From a virus, in the IMG/VR virus record IMGVR_UViG_3300008448_000312, positions 1-35,200 of that record: a DNA stretch of 35,200 nucleotides; one strand, given 5' to 3'. Of this stretch, positions 16,432 to 21,105 are shown piece by piece (the stretch's first letter is position 1; the number at the start of each line of letters is the position of its first letter). The position numbers and the translations under genes were made by a program. A model generated the notes under the pieces. The model saw only the letters and a program-made list of their open reading frames with translations, made no database searches and was not told the DNA's origin.

Positions 16432-18089
16432 TGAGCTTAGAACGCATTAAACAACGTTTAGATCCTAATAGCCCTTATTCATCTGAGCCAGCTCAAAACA
16501 CGGCTGCAGCATTAGGTGCTTTGGGTGCCATTGGTTCTCCCCTTTTAGGCTATTCAATTTCTTCTGGGTCTGCCGCAACAGGAGAACAACTGATTGATCG
16601 TGCTGAACTTGCGGGGAAATATTTTGACAAGGATATTGATCCCCGTCTTAAGGATATTTTTTTAAAAGAAGGTGGCTATGGTTTGCAGTTTAAAGCTGGC
16701 CCAGTACTGCAAGAATTAATTCCTTCTACAAAAACACCTTTTGTTCCGGCTGATCTTTCATTGGCTGGCAAATACGCAGAACAATTAAAAACCGTACAAC
16801 CTGCCAATTATCAAGCAGATATTATTACTGTTACACCAGGTCCTAATCCTGCGCGTTTTGCAACTCCTGAATTAACGCCGGCTGAGATTGGTGAAGGTGG
16901 AGCAAAAGGTTATCTTTGGGGCAACCCAAAGGAACCTCAATGGAGCTATGCACGGGGAAATACAAGAAAAGAAACAGTTGTAACTTCTAACCCAACGCTT
17001 TACATGACGCGTTTGGATTTGATGCCAGAAGCAAAAGGTAAGTTTAAGACAACAGGTGAAGTTGTTGCTGATCCTAGTTTAATTACAAATCGTGCATGGG
17101 GACAACGCGGCACAAACGAAGGAGATATTTATTTCCCAAAAGAAAGCATCAGAGCACGTGGAGAAGTTACAGCTGCAGACCTTTATACAAAACTTGAAAA
17201 CTATGGATTTGCGCCTACACCTATAGCTGATGTCAATCGGCCAGATGAATATTTTATGCAGCTGGCAAATCGTCTTGCGCAGCTAGAAGGTACCCCAGGT
17301 AAACCAAAACCTCTTAATCAAGTTCTTTTAGAAACAGCTTCACCTGTTCCCGCATTAGGCGAGTCAACTCGTGAACGAGGCAGTGTTCCAATTTTTAAAG
17401 ACTTTGATATAGAAGGAGCAACAGCAGAACAAAAAACAAAGGCTGGAATCGATAAAATCTTTATCGATCCAATGAATCCGTCTAGCTATGCCAAACCATT
17501 AAGCTGGGATTATGTTCACGTTGGCAACAAAGAAAGGACTTTGACGTTGCCTGCTGATATTGTGCGAGAGCCTTCTACTTTTGCAGGGCAAATGTTTAGA
17601 AATATTAACCCACTGACTACAGGTAGTTTTGTTGCGGGTGCCTTGTATAGCCCAGAAGTTTTTGAAGATTTTCAAAAAGGTCAGTATGGTGCTGGCTTAT
17701 TAAAAGCTGGGGCCAGTGCAACAACAGGTGCGTTGGCAGAAGGCTTAGTACGTAGTGGTGTGACCAAAGCTGCGCAAGCAGGTATTGCTGCTCCTGCTCG
17801 TGCTTTAGCAGTTGCCAACCCCTTGATTGCTTCTATTGCAACGGCAACATTAGCTCCAAGTTCTTCTCCTCAACCACGAGCTGTTGGTACTTACAAAGGT
17901 TCAACTGTCTTCCGTAATCCACAAGGAGCTTTGGTTGCTGCCCCAGGTGGTCGGCCTGTTCGTTTAGGTACCGCTGTCAAAGGTGGTAAACCAACATTTG
18001 TACCATGGGGTTCTGTTGCAGGAACTAAAGTTGGGCCACGTACTGTTGGTCGTCCTTGGTGGGACCTTGGTCAATTTGTTGGGCGCTAA
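16431..18089 (+). CDS. Large virion-associated or internal protein, unknown
   Basis: This 552-residue protein has a small hydrophobic stretch near residues 25-45 (AAALGALGAIGSPLLGYS) and an Ala/Gly-rich C-terminal third (LKAGASATTGALAEGL, AARAL-like runs, IASIATATLAP). Internal virion or ejection proteins often have such regions. The middle has mixed content with several NPxx and DPSLI segments. I cannot name a family. It is coupled to the Dps-like gene by an overlapping start and ends stop-to-stop with the minus-strand HNH gene. Confidence 0.6.
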   Translation: MSLERIKQRLDPNSPYSSEPAQNTAAALGALGAIGSPLLGYSISSGSAATGEQLIDRAELAGKYFDKDIDPRLKDIFLKEGGYGLQFKAGPVLQELIPSTKTPFVPADLSLAGKYAEQLKTVQPANYQADIITVTPGPNPARFATPELTPAEIGEGGAKGYLWGNPKEPQWSYARGNTRKETVVTSNPTLYMTRLDLMPEAKGKFKTTGEVVADPSLITNRAWGQRGTNEGDIYFPKESIRARGEVTAADLYTKLENYGFAPTPIADVNRPDEYFMQLANRLAQLEGTPGKPKPLNQVLLETASPVPALGESTRERGSVPIFKDFDIEGATAEQKTKAGIDKIFIDPMNPSSYAKPLSWDYVHVGNKERTLTLPADIVREPSTFAGQMFRNINPLTTGSFVAGALYSPEVFEDFQKGQYGAGLLKAGASATTGALAEGLVRSGVTKAAQAGIAAPARALAVANPLIASIATATLAPSSSPQPRAVGTYKGSTVFRNPQGALVAAPGGRPVRLGTAVKGGKPTFVPWGSVAGTKVGPRTVGRPWWDLGQFVGR

Positions 18090-18343
18090 CCAACCCAGTG
18101 CTCAAGCCTGTGGCAGTTGCAGCATAGCGGAATACATTTCTTTATTTCCTCTTCGATGCGGCGCCAGCCGTATCCGTGGTTAACCATATTTGATATGTTA
18201 TGGTCCTTGTCACCAACGTGGTGGAACTCAAGGACACGATGATCATCCAACCCACAGTGCTGGCAATTCAAAGTCTTCTTGTACTCAAGAAACTTTTGTC
18301 TATTGCGCTGGAGCTTTTCTTTGGAGGTTGGCACCAAAGCCAA
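18086..18343 (-). CDS. Small HNH endonuclease
   Basis: This 85-residue protein has CQHCG near residues 27-31, VLEFHHVGDKDHNI near 37-50, and CIPLCCNCHRLEHW near 70-83. This is the C-x2-C ... HH ... CxNCHRxxH layout of small phage HNH nucleases. The start is TTG 18343, or GTG a few codons on. It is the first of several mobile-type nucleases in the minus-strand block. Its stop overlaps the stop of the gene at 16431-18089. Confidence 0.85.
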   Translation of the reverse strand: MALVPTSKEKLQRNRQKFLEYKKTLNCQHCGLDDHRVLEFHHVGDKDHNISNMVNHGYGWRRIEEEIKKCIPLCCNCHRLEHWVG

Positions 18344-18371: not shown

Positions 18372-19007
18372 TTACTGGTCGCTTGTGGTTGTTGTTTCGT
18401 ATATAAAATGGTCGGACGTTTCAATCATCCGTGAATTTTCTACGCTGTACTCAGTCAAGTCAATCTCGTAACCAGGGTTCTTTTCAATACGGTTCTTGAG
18501 CCAGGCATCGTCGTACCAGATGATCCGATTATTAGGATACGCATAGAAGTTGCCGTCATCCATCCGGAAGAAGTGTGCACACTTATGCTCAGGTGTTTCA
18601 CTGAAGTTTGTATTAAGAGTTGATTTGGATTCCCATGACCAGTCAAGGGTGAACATGTAGATGCCGCCCTTCTTCTCCCCTTTGAAATTGATCAGTTGGG
18701 CGCGTAAGTTTGAAAGGCGTGACCTGACTTGTACATCGATATACGGAGAGAAACAATCCCACCACATACATTCATTTAATTCGGGCTTAGGGGCATCAGG
18801 TTTCCAGCAGAGAGCATGTATCGGACGCCTTGTCCAGTTGACTCCATTCTCTAGAAAGACTTCAAATAAAGGGACGTGTTTCTCCAGGGAAGCCACTGAG
18901 TGGACATCGCACAACGTCACATCACCATGGCCTTGCTTGTGGTTGTATAGGAATTCGTTTCGGATGTAGCACGTAAACGTAGGCAGGTTGTGGTTCAGGT
19001 AACTCAT
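18372..19007 (-). CDS. Unknown phage protein with FFRMDDGNFYAYPNNR motif
   Basis: This 211-residue protein begins MSYLNHNLPTFTCYIRNEFL. It contains GIYMFTLDWSWES and the motif FFRMDDGNFYAYPNNRIIW near residues 145-163, which I believe recurs in cyanophage genomes; I know no function for it. It is rich in Trp, Tyr and Phe. It starts 17 nt downstream of the tRNA gene, so the two may share a transcript. Confidence 0.72.
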   Translation of the reverse strand: MSYLNHNLPTFTCYIRNEFLYNHKQGHGDVTLCDVHSVASLEKHVPLFEVFLENGVNWTRRPIHALCWKPDAPKPELNECMWWDCFSPYIDVQVRSRLSNLRAQLINFKGEKKGGIYMFTLDWSWESKSTLNTNFSETPEHKCAHFFRMDDGNFYAYPNNRIIWYDDAWLKNRIEKNPGYEIDLTEYSVENSRMIETSDHFIYETTTTSDQ

Positions 19008-19024
19008 CTATTGGCCATGGTGAA

Positions 19025-19096
19025 TCGGGATGGTAGGGATTGAACCTACGACCTTCTGTTCCCAAAACAGACACGCTGCCGCTGCGCTACATCCCG
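19025..19096 (-). tRNA. tRNA-Pro (anticodon TGG)
   Basis: Read on the minus strand, the acceptor arm CGGGATG pairs with CATCCCG, and the discriminator base is A. The D stem is GCGC/GCGT. The anticodon stem is TCTGT/ACAGA with loop TTTGGGA, giving anticodon TGG and G37 as usual for proline tRNAs. The T arm is GTAGG-TTCAATC-CCTAC. The length is 72 nt. CCA is not encoded (TTCA follows). It lies directly downstream of an unusual 76-nt stem-loop. Confidence 0.93.
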
Positions 19097-19102
19097 AGTT
19101 TA

Positions 19103-19178
19103 AGTGATGGGCCAGGTGTAACAAGGACTTACTCGACGGGTCTCCGTATGCCTTGACAGGGACCTGGCCTCTATCACT
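19103..19178 (-). ncRNA. Nested 76-nt stem-loop directly 5' of the tRNA
   Basis: Plus-strand coordinates of the nested arms are: AGTGAT 19103-19108 with ATCACT 19173-19178; GGCCAGGT 19110-19117 with ACCTGGCC 19162-19169; CAAGG 19122-19126 with CCTTG 19151-19155; and ACGG 19136-19139 with CCGT 19144-19147. All are collinear, so the whole folds as one long hairpin. It ends 6 nt before the tRNA 5' end. It could be a processing signal, a small RNA or a DNA-level site. Confidence 0.5.
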
Positions 19179-19190
19179 CAGTAGTATAAC

Positions 19191-19217
19191 AAAAAAACCT
19201 CGGTTGCTCAAGCCGAG
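19191..19217 (-). terminator. Rho-independent terminator on the minus strand
   Basis: On the minus strand the stem CTCGG pairs with CCGAG across a 9-nt loop, and extra TTG/CAA pairing is possible. A run of seven T follows (A-run 19191-19197 on the plus strand). It would end transcripts from the DUF5872-like locus before the tRNA. Confidence 0.75.
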
Positions 19218-19299
19218 ATCTAGAACTAACTACTTACCGCCAATACCTACGGGACGAGACGTGTGTATTGAGCACTGAAAGTATAGCGCGATACTTGTC

Positions 19300-19500
19300 C
19301 TACGATTTGCTATCTTGATAGCGACGGGCTGCACGTCCAGCTAGCTTTGCTTTTTTGGTGTTTGAAACAAACTGTTTGCCTTCGCGACTGGCGGCGCGTT
19401 TCTTTTGATCTGTTTCCGTACGTTCTTCTGGGGACAATGAGGCCCAGGCTTTTTCTGGAAGGTAGCGCTTGGTGTATCCCTTTTGAATTGCCTTATCCAT
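19300..19500 (-). CDS. DUF5872-type C-terminal domain as a separate protein
   Basis: This 66-residue basic protein contains TKRYLPEKAWASLSPEERTE and GKQFVSNTKKAKLAGRA. In DUF5872-type proteins, as I recall them, a TRYLPxKAWxxLS ... GKQFVxNT segment forms the C-terminal end after the GGKPGQWSARK part. Here it has its own ATG that overlaps the stop of the preceding piece by one base (TAATG). The locus therefore appears split into two coupled genes. It is Lys/Arg-rich; function is unknown. Confidence 0.7.
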   Translation of the reverse strand: MDKAIQKGYTKRYLPEKAWASLSPEERTETDQKKRAASREGKQFVSNTKKAKLAGRAARRYQDSKS

Positions 19501-19808
19501 TACTTACTATCTTTGTATTTTTGTGCAGCAGATTTAGCTTCCTTCCTTTTTTTATACTCGTCTTTAGTCATCCATTTTTCACGGCCCCACTTCTCCAAAG
19601 ACTTTTGCTTCTCGCCTTTACCTCCTTTATATCCACCGCCTGCAGACTTGTATTCACTTGCAACAAGCTGAGCTTTCCGTGCCGATATTATTTAGCCTCA
19701 CGGCTACGACCATTCCCCTGGCTTGCCACCACGACCTTCGCGCATTACACGATTCTTAATACGTTCGCGAAGATCAGGTTTGGTGTACTTGCTTTTGTCT
19801 TCAGCCAT
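19500..19808 (-). pseudogene. DUF5872-like gene interrupted by 24 nt with three in-frame stops
   Basis: From ATG 19808 the frame reads MAEDKSKYTKPDLRERIKN, then GGKPGEWS, and then stops at TAG 19704-19706. After 24 nt the same frame resumes at GCA with ARKAQLVASEYKSAGGGY, then KGGKGEKQKSLEKWGREKWM, and ends at TAA 19500-19502. The joined product is exactly the expected GGKPGxWSARKAQLV family sequence. Either the gene is broken by a small insertion or ribosomes bypass the gap. The ATG overlaps the stop of the upstream endonuclease gene. It is listed as a pseudogene only because conventional translation stops early. Confidence 0.75.
19683..19709 (-). other. Candidate ribosomal-bypass or mini-insertion element
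   Basis: On the minus strand TCG (19709-19707) is followed at once by TAG, a perfect 5-bp hairpin TAGCC-GTGA-GGCTA, then AATAATA, then a second TCG (19685-19683). The coding sequence then resumes in the same frame. The loop GTGA is a GNRA tetraloop. GAGG, which could act like a Shine-Dalgarno, lies 10 nt before the second TCG. Three stop codons (TAG, TGA, TAA) lie in frame between the two TCG codons. Matching codons around a stop-led hairpin are the features of the T4 gene 60 bypass. Confidence 0.5.
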
Positions 19809-20409
19809 AGCTTCCTCGCTCTTTAAGATAAATGACTGCATTTGTCAATACATCTATATTATCACCAAACAAGCCTAAGGCCCTATTACATTCTTTGCAA
19901 AGTAAGCCTCTAAACTCATTTGTTTTGTGATTATGATCCATTGCTAAAGAGTGTGTGTCTTTGGGTGGTTGTTTGCAAATTGCGCACAGACCTTGCTGTA
20001 TTTCAAAAACAAGTTCATATTGTTCTTTGGTAATACCTCTTCGTTCATATTTTTTGTGATTTTTGTGCAGTAAATTTTGCCCTTGTTTTTTAACTTTTTG
20101 ATAACGTTCTTTATTATTTTCTACCCATCTGTCCCATTTAATTCTGTTGCATGCTTTGCATGAAGAATGTAAATACAGCTTTCCATCTTGTTTTCTTTTT
20201 CTAAAACAATCCCAATTCAAAAAATGGGCACATTCAGAGCATTGCTTTTGGCCGTCTGTTCCATACAAAAGTCTGAATCTTTTGTTTACTAAAGAGCTGC
20301 AGTCCTTGCAAACGCTGTCACGTTTTATGTTTCCGGCTGATGTGTATCCTTTGTTGTGAAAATTTTCATGCGGTTTTCTGGTGTTGCATTCACGACAAAG
20401 TTTTTGCAT
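19801..20409 (-). CDS. Recombination endonuclease VII-like HNH protein
   Basis: This protein of about 202 residues starts at ATG 20409 (MQKLCRECNTRKP); TTG 20442 is an alternative. The N-terminal half has zinc-type Cys pairs (CRECNTRKPHENF, CKDC, CSEC, CKAC). The C-terminal part has the endonuclease VII signature: CAICKQPPKDTHSLAMDHNH near residues 140-160, then FRGLLCKECNRALGLFGDN. The family cuts branched DNA in T4, and free-standing forms act as homing nucleases. It is A+T-rich and sits between a truncated and an interrupted copy of a DUF5872-like gene, so it is probably a mobile insertion there. Confidence 0.88.
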   Translation of the reverse strand: MQKLCRECNTRKPHENFHNKGYTSAGNIKRDSVCKDCSSLVNKRFRLLYGTDGQKQCSECAHFLNWDCFRKRKQDGKLYLHSSCKACNRIKWDRWVENNKERYQKVKKQGQNLLHKNHKKYERRGITKEQYELVFEIQQGLCAICKQPPKDTHSLAMDHNHKTNEFRGLLCKECNRALGLFGDNIDVLTNAVIYLKERGSYG

Positions 20410-20444
20410 TGGATTGTTTGTGCTTTTCTTACAATAGCACAAAT

Positions 20445-20540
20445 TTATTGACCCGGCTTGCCACCCTTGGAGCCGGCCATCACACGATCTTTAATCCGTT
20501 CGCGCAATTCCGGCTTTGTATAACTATTCTCCTGAGACAT
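20445..20540 (-). pseudogene. Truncated DUF5872-like N-terminal fragment
   Basis: The 31-residue frame reads MSQENSYTKPELRERIKD, then RVMAGSKGGKPGQ, then TAA. It matches the start of the gene at 19808 and stops exactly before the expected WSARK. The endonuclease VII-like gene follows immediately. It is the 5' piece of the original gene, cut off where the endonuclease gene begins. Confidence 0.75.
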
Positions 20541-20700
20541 CAGGATTGTCTTTACGTTCTTTTAGTATTTTAGCCCACTTACATTCCTTGGTATTTACCG
20601 CCCAGTTTGCAGGCGGATTGGGGATTAATTTTTCTAAATCCCAAAAATATTTTTGGAGGCGATCAGCCTCCGATAAACAATGCCTTTGAGGTTTACTCAA
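20524..20700 (-). CDS. Hypothetical protein, 58 residues
   Basis: I chose TTG 20700, which overlaps the previous stop (TTGAGTAA) and gives MSKPQRHCLSEADRLQKYF. The rest is ENPPANW-type sequence (LEKLIPNPPANWAVNTKE), with a basic, then acidic end. An open frame continues upstream to 20775 but would overlap another gene. Its end overlaps the fragment starting at 20540. No family is recognised. Confidence 0.55.
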   Translation of the reverse strand: MSKPQRHCLSEADRLQKYFWDLEKLIPNPPANWAVNTKECKWAKILKERKDNPDVSGE

Positions 20701-20914
20701 AATCTTTGAAAGAACGGGAAGACGAAGGGTCTGCTTTGTTACCAAACTTTTGCATAATCTCATCCATTGATTCAATGCTTTCGCAACGCATCAAGATGTC
20801 AGAGATAGTGCCAATGGTTACGGCATGTTCAGACCGTGCAGCAAAAGCAAGGGCATCACGCAGGTGATTGACTGCCTGGTTGACTGAATCCTTCACCTGC
20901 GTCGAGAGAGCCAT
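20693..20914 (-). CDS. Hypothetical helical protein
   Basis: The preferred start is ATG 20914 (MALSTQVKDSVNQAVNHL), giving about 73 residues. An upstream ATG at 20959 would enlarge the overlap with the neighbouring gene. It is helical throughout (RDALAFAARSEHAVTIGTIS, then CESIESMDEIMQKFGNK). Function is unknown. Confidence 0.6.
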   Translation of the reverse strand: MALSTQVKDSVNQAVNHLRDALAFAARSEHAVTIGTISDILMRCESIESMDEIMQKFGNKADPSSSRSFKDFE

Positions 20915-21062
20915 CTGCGATTCCGTTGGTTGTTTCGTCAGTATAAAGGTTGTTGTCATTTGCTTGTCTCGATAGCAATAAACTTTCTAGAAGTTTGTTG
21001 TGATTTGCGACCAGGGACTTACCCTCTTCTATCGCTTGTACATAGTCTGGCAGCTTTTCCAT
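20856..21062 (-). CDS. Hypothetical acidic protein, 68 residues
   Basis: It begins MEKLPDYVQAIEEGKSLV and continues NHNKLLESLLLSRQAND. The C-terminal part is low-complexity Gly/Ser/Asp and overlaps the next gene in another frame. The first 45 residues look like a real amphipathic helix pair. No family is recognised. Confidence 0.55.
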   Translation of the reverse strand: MEKLPDYVQAIEEGKSLVANHNKLLESLLLSRQANDNNLYTDETTNGIADGSLDAGEGFSQPGSQSPA

Positions 21063-21105
21063 TTAAATCAAATACGGAGAACGTGAATAAACAATACGGT
21101 TTACC

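Follow-up and report, generated by a model that had tools for sequence, protein, structure and literature searches.

How can a gene be read to its end when three stop codons stand in frame between its two halves? The question is raised by a DUF5872-like gene on the minus strand of the virus record IMGVR_UViG_3300008448_000312, whose 35.2 kb (35,200 nucleotides, nt) constitute the window analysed here. A TCG serine codon in this gene is followed at once by a TAG stop, a perfect hairpin and an AT-rich linker, and coding resumes at a second TCG. It is highly probable that a mobile homing-endonuclease cassette interrupts the DUF5872 gene and that programmed ribosomal bypassing keeps the interruption silent, the ribosome hopping from one TCG to the other. 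The insertion, the gap, its conservation, the selection on the gene and the independence of reading frame are read from the sequences themselves; the hop is what we infer from them. The interrupted gene is laid out as follows.

19707 to 19808, minus strand: replacement 5' half, cassette-borne and DUF5872-like, MAEDKSKYTKPDLRERIKNRVMREGRGGKPGEW plus the take-off TCG; the 5' halves of interrupted alleles are mutually nearest in 39 of 40 cases.
19713 to 19718, minus strand: Shine-Dalgarno-like GGGGAA (Gly-Glu codons) just 5' of TGG-TCG, with a putative role suggested by codon comparison.
19686 to 19706, minus strand: 21-nt coding gap, hairpin plus linker, with the stem as in T4 gene 60.
19706 to 19693, minus strand: perfect 5-bp hairpin TAGCC-GTGA-GGCTA, starting at the UAG stop (19706-19704).
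19692 to 19686, minus strand: AT-rich linker AATAATA.
19683 to 19685, minus strand: landing codon TCG (TCG in 39 of 41 interrupted alleles).
19500 to 19682, minus strand: 3' half, ARKAQLVASEYK...KYKDSK, with stop TAA at 19502-19500; ratio of nonsynonymous to synonymous differences (pN/pS) about 0.09.

The gap-bearing gene starts at an ATG (19808-19806) that overlaps the stop of the preceding endonuclease gene (ATGGCTGA), and it reads MAEDKSKYTKPDLRERIKNRVMREGRGGKPGEWS up to the take-off TCG (19709-19707). Its gap holds TAG, TGA and TAA, all in frame, and 10 nt separate the end of a GAGG (19699-19696) from the second TCG. An earlier note on this DNA had described the take-off TCG, the TAG, the hairpin, the AATAATA, the second TCG, the ARKAQLV that follows, the in-frame stops and the GAGG, and all of them lie where it placed them. 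The 24-nt insertion of which it spoke is present, with the correction that the sequence between the TCG codons is 21 nt and that 24 counts one TCG; the note saw the gap itself and missed the cassette around it. The hairpin motif has no second occurrence within the window.

Related phages carry the same element. The search for the hairpin that the note had proposed finds its 20-mer exactly in 7 other viral contigs, always in the same gene. Degenerate patterns and a protein-guided search yielded 42 interrupted alleles by script, and removal of one truncated copy left 41; the patterns required TAG, with TAA and TGA also allowed by the script in the loci at hand, and L007, identical to the window, is counted once. 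These 41 distinct interrupted alleles are compared throughout with 65 uninterrupted ones (GGKPGQW-S-ARKAQ). A second protein-guided search added more uninterrupted relatives, some of them close to a second clade of interrupted alleles, which are left out of the counts. Judged by these sequences, chance and assembly error are excluded as the source of the interruption. Scans for copies of the hairpin in other genes returned only DUF5872 and unrelated coding matches. In bacterial genomes the pattern occurs in at least 119 records from unrelated bacteria, with no interrupted DUF5872 gene among their examined loci, and a search of the open-licence literature found no report of a DUF5872 hairpin-gap element.

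The length of the gap bears on how it is passed. Between the two serine codons lie 20, 21, 24, 25, 26 or 30 nt across the 41 interrupted alleles. These lengths cover all three residues modulo 3 and the point of resumption is the same serine in every case, with SARKAQ in frame, so plain readthrough and a fixed frameshift are excluded. The alignment with uninterrupted genes for which the earlier note had called shows the frame of the 3' half to fit in all 41 alleles despite this spread. The skipped sequence thus appears to go undecoded, with the frame set by landing. Readthrough or recoding of the stops was rejected as a candidate, the gap containing three different stops and often having a length that is not a multiple of 3; the same stops and lengths rule out a frameshift pair via another frame.

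As far as the aligned alleles can tell, both halves of the gene are under purifying selection. Pooled over 15 pairs of interrupted alleles, the 3' half has a pN/pS of 0.087, and six pairs from the second clade give 0.099. Two alleles that have the gap and no endonuclease gene, L135 and L179, retain an intact 3' half with a pN/pS of 0.15. The residues A R K A Q directly after landing show zero amino-acid changes in 41 alleles, and all five codons vary synonymously. Because these codons are co-transferred with the gap in a filled/empty pair of alleles, they have probably long been part of interrupted genes. The earlier note had held that downstream decay, or a high ratio of nonsynonymous to synonymous substitution rates (dN/dS), would speak against bypassing; a pN/pS near 0.09 instead indicates strong purifying selection.

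The take-off codon is UCG in 41/41 interrupted alleles and the landing codon is UCG in 39/41, the remaining two being related alleles with UCU (L091 and L160), compared with only 2/65 uninterrupted genes that have TCG at the junction serine. UAG stands directly after take-off in 41/41, as the search patterns required, and the stem UAGCC/GGCUA is kept in 40/41, the exception being L054. The loops (GTGA, GTAA, GCAA, GGGA and GAAA) are all GNRA, and a loop-free scan turned up only GNRA loops in the DUF5872 gene; linkers are AT-rich and 6-16 nt long. Directly upstream of TGG-TCG, Gly is encoded by GGA or GGG in 41/41 interrupted versus 23/65 uninterrupted alleles and Gln has become Glu in 41/41 versus 2/65, contrasts whose Fisher values overstate independence, the alleles being related. 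Together these two codon changes create a Shine-Dalgarno-like GGRGAR just 5' of take-off, which is better conserved than the RAGG before landing. An RAGG is indeed present in the hairpin, but the role of landing aid that the earlier note gave to GAGG is doubtful because its spacing to landing varies (9-19 nt).

RNAalifold pairs the take-off GUCG with the landing CGGC below the hairpin, a near-invariant pairing with no covariation. Upstream of take-off, where a 5' stem-loop would lie, the predicted pairs are only weak. A KSKYTKP stretch lies in the 5' half, about 25-30 residues before take-off, with a similar stretch in uninterrupted relatives. Two alleles have other arrangements. In L054 (2970-3010) the gap TAGCTATAATATTAAATAATT is without a local hairpin, and a possible alternative fold would pair its UAGC with the GCUA immediately downstream of landing. 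L147 (about 1030) has an altered 5' half, a stem changed to GGCCA and no landing site in frame. A late promoter (CTAAATA) was considered and dropped, the motif occurring four times in the window, as chance predicts.

The gap forms the right-hand end of a larger insertion. A cassette of about 0.76 kb separates GGKPGQ from W in DUF5872, and its parts in the window are these.

19801 to 20409, minus strand: endonuclease VII-like HNH (His-Me finger) gene of 202 amino acids from ATG, a putative homing endonuclease (PF02945, E=4e-21; PHROG endonuclease VII, E=6e-33).
20448 to 20540, minus strand: left remnant, a DUF5872 5' half belonging to the recipient itself, MSQENSYTKPELRERIKDRVMAGSKGGKPGQ, with TAA at 20447-20445 at the boundary between Q and W; the same junction occurs in other alleles.
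19686 to 20447, minus strand: whole cassette of about 762 nt, comprising degraded target remnant, endonuclease gene, replacement 5' half and gap, as delimited by the filled/empty pair.

About 20 further interrupted alleles share this left junction. Among the interrupted alleles for which sequence is available, nearly all have the endonuclease gene as immediate neighbour, and none of the 71 uninterrupted hits has it within 2.5 kb. The filled allele L160 and the empty allele L075 share 98-99% identity in flanks of 1.0 and 3.1 kb and are set apart by an insertion of 764 bp in place of 4 nt, and about 30 nt past the gap are donor-like; the 3' half is the recipient allele's own except for this short co-converted stretch. 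The 5' halves of interrupted alleles resemble each other and their 3' halves mix with those of uninterrupted alleles, which, together with the filled/empty pair, is the pattern left by homing. The gap and the changed codons may also shield the cassette's own copy from its nuclease, as is reported for mobA and gene 60 of T4, which a 2011 study is said to have described as a mobile cassette. L005, L125, L188 and L195 have lost most of the endonuclease gene and retain the left remnant, the gap and the two halves of DUF5872.

With the steps of detachment, sliding and re-pairing borrowed from the T4 system, bypassing at this gap can be pictured as follows. The ribosome would arrive with UCG in the P site and UAG in the A site, where the UAGCC/GGCUA hairpin would form. 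The Shine-Dalgarno-like GGRGAR just upstream may hold the ribosome, so that no termination would occur, and peptidyl-tRNA-Ser would detach from the take-off UCG. The ribosome would then slide 20-30 nt past the hairpin and the AT-rich linker, and re-pairing at the downstream UCG, followed by Ala-Arg-Lys, would give a normal DUF5872 protein.

The parallel with T4 gene 60 drawn in the earlier note proves stronger than was claimed, the take-off stem at the stop being identical and an HNH-type endonuclease gene being the neighbour in both. The T4 record reads GAT-GGA-TAGCC-TTCG-GGCTA...GGA, with the same core stem UAGCC/GGCUA starting at the UAG right after take-off. Such a stem must begin with UAG, and agreement with T4 at the two further pairs has a chance of about 1/16; the shared stem is suggestive and no proof of common descent. 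Each system has stops in the gap of a small phage gene, and in each an adjoining HNH-type endonuclease gene splits the host gene. Gene 60 adjoins the defective HNH gene mobA and is part of a gene that other T4-related phages sequenced by 2010 have whole. There are also differences. T4 uses GGA for take-off and landing, a 50-nt gap, a UUCG loop and a topoisomerase gene, whereas here the codons are UCG, the gap is a variable 20-30 nt, the loop is GNRA and the host gene is DUF5872. The enzyme here is endonuclease VII-like, its cassette brings along a complete replacement for the 5' half, and a Shine-Dalgarno-like GGRGAR precedes take-off. Finally, the element recurs across many phages, in contrast to the T4-type split, which is described as missing from the other T4 relatives sequenced up to 2010.

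Several observations weigh against bypassing. The stem is near-invariant, so covariation gives no test of the hairpin, and simple folding of the flanked sequence from the window ranks another structure above it. L054 lacks a local hairpin, the landing codon of L091 and L160 is mismatched, and neither a nascent-peptide signal like the KKYK of T4 nor a 5' stem-loop was demonstrated. L147 looks decayed, unlike the other interrupted alleles, and homing refreshes 3' halves from uninterrupted alleles (the nearest neighbour is uninterrupted in 9/40), so part of the intactness of the 3' halves could be recent. These last two points would also fit a cassette that simply breaks the gene, with a selfish endonuclease spreading by homing that partly swaps 3' halves, the interrupted alleles being young and the 3' half yet to decay. 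We regard this as improbable. The codons right after the gap, which travel with it, vary only synonymously, and second-clade 3' halves, whose best identity to uninterrupted alleles in the first set was 0.65-0.75, have a pN/pS of 0.10, some closer uninterrupted relatives having been found later. Alleles in which the endonuclease gene is eroded or missing (L135, L179, L005, L125 and L195) still have the gap and both halves, and a dead gene would not preserve matching UCG codons, GNRA loops and a constant stem. The earlier note had offered both readings. The spread of gap lengths modulo 3, the purifying selection and the two endonuclease-free alleles with gap and intact 3' half favour its bypass; its broken gene is disfavoured by selection on both halves and by retention of the gap without the endonuclease gene. 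A pseudogene made by insertion had been struck from the candidates on the same grounds of selection and persistence.

Two further explanations are less likely still. Excision of the 20-30 nt from the mRNA with ligation of the ends, or a hairpin that is itself a miniature intron, would also account for frame-independent joining at a serine codon. Its probability is nonetheless very small: Rfam on 18900-21100 finds only a tRNA and no intron, the gap is far too short for known self-splicing introns, and we know of no bacterial route for excising such a segment. The immediate UAG, the matched codons and the T4-like take-off stem are signatures of bypass. Equally improbable is the view that two separate proteins are made, the 5' half ending at UAG and the 3' half re-initiated near the gap, even though the RAGG in the hairpin could serve as a Shine-Dalgarno site and the DUF5872 family has ordinary fissions elsewhere (a TAATG overlap at 19500, and after GGGYK in other phages). 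No usable or conserved in-frame start codon lies 5' of ARKAQ in the interrupted alleles, whose offsets span all frames; many 25- and 26-nt gaps have an in-frame TGA directly 5' of the landing TCG, and the ARKAQ codons 5' of any possible start are fully conserved. In an AlphaFold2 model of one uninterrupted protein (mean predicted local distance difference test score 74, about 90 over residues 11-50), the junction lies between the two best-predicted helices, its serine immediately ahead of the second helix in a helical hairpin, so two separate chains would cut a predicted domain.

Programmed bypassing at the DUF5872 gap can be set beside other departures from continuous decoding. The +1 site of prfB (RF2) has a Shine-Dalgarno-like sequence a few nt before the P-site codon, with a stop next, but it involves a 1-nt shift rather than a jump of 20-30 nt. 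The byp elements of Magnusiomyces capitatus mitochondria are likewise brief insertions within coding genes, passed over in translation, and they tolerate imperfect landing codons. They occupy 81 mitochondrial sites under relaxed mitochondrial decoding, in contrast to the one fixed phage-gene site with an endonuclease cassette described here. The terminase of Streptomyces phage Hau3 is also a phage gene with a proposed short-gap bypass, although the gene is another one and the codon is UUA; we know of no cassette or family of alleles for it. For Hau3 a review points to a Shine-Dalgarno sequence upstream of the gap and to Trp-Gly ahead of take-off. For more than 30 years T4 gene 60 has been the sole well-studied example of efficient programmed bypassing in bacterial systems, and the question whether it has counterparts is raised in reviews.

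The DUF5872 element is likely to be such a counterpart: a second phage family of programmed bypassing, residing in a gene unrelated to T4 gene 60, in which the endonuclease cassette would be silent through a replacement 5' half and a hairpin hop rather than RNA or protein splicing. It would be carried by cyanophages like Synechococcus phage S-EIV1 and by their relatives, and be old enough to have acquired at least six gap lengths. If so, some 40 natural variants of a bypass element shorter and simpler than that of T4 gene 60 are at hand. They would provide comparative evidence on what bypassing needs, namely a stop, a stem, a GNRA or UUCG loop, matched codons, an upstream Shine-Dalgarno-like site and a flexible linker, and would show it to be independent of a fixed length and of a 50-nt gap. 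The union of homing endonuclease and bypass gap would then be a recurrent strategy for harmless mobility, beyond an accident of T4.

The window comes from an S-EIV1-like cyanophage, because its primase is 65% identical to that of S-EIV1 over 98% of its length. S-EIV1 has the same DUF5872-like gene, uninterrupted; in a protein search of isolate phages the gene is carried by S-EIV1 and a few marine phages, and a DNA-level search of isolate phages gave no match. The uninterrupted relative L011 matches the DUF5872 (PF19197) profile with E=2e-5 and 25.6 bits, just under the curated cut-off of 27.5 bits. A structure search of the PDB gave nothing informative on DUF5872 function.

The next gene in the window (19300-19500, minus strand) overlaps the stop of the gap-bearing gene by TAATG and encodes MDKAIQKGYTKRYLPEKAWASLSPEE..., a product resembling the C-terminal region of longer DUF5872 proteins elsewhere, such as that of phage locus L018. 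By its sequence, position 19500 seems to be a second, ordinary fission of the family. In L334, L336, L340, L364, L376 and similar loci the DUF5872 frame ends after GGGYK, with an apparent restart at a nearby or overlapping ATG, and this break, present in many other phages, appears to be another fission point. Farther along the minus strand, a small open reading frame at 18086-18343 contains the HNH-like motif CQHCG...LEFHHVGDKDH...CCNCHRLEH and may be a second endonuclease, and a tRNA-Pro gene (TGG anticodon), also found by Rfam, lies at 19024-19097.
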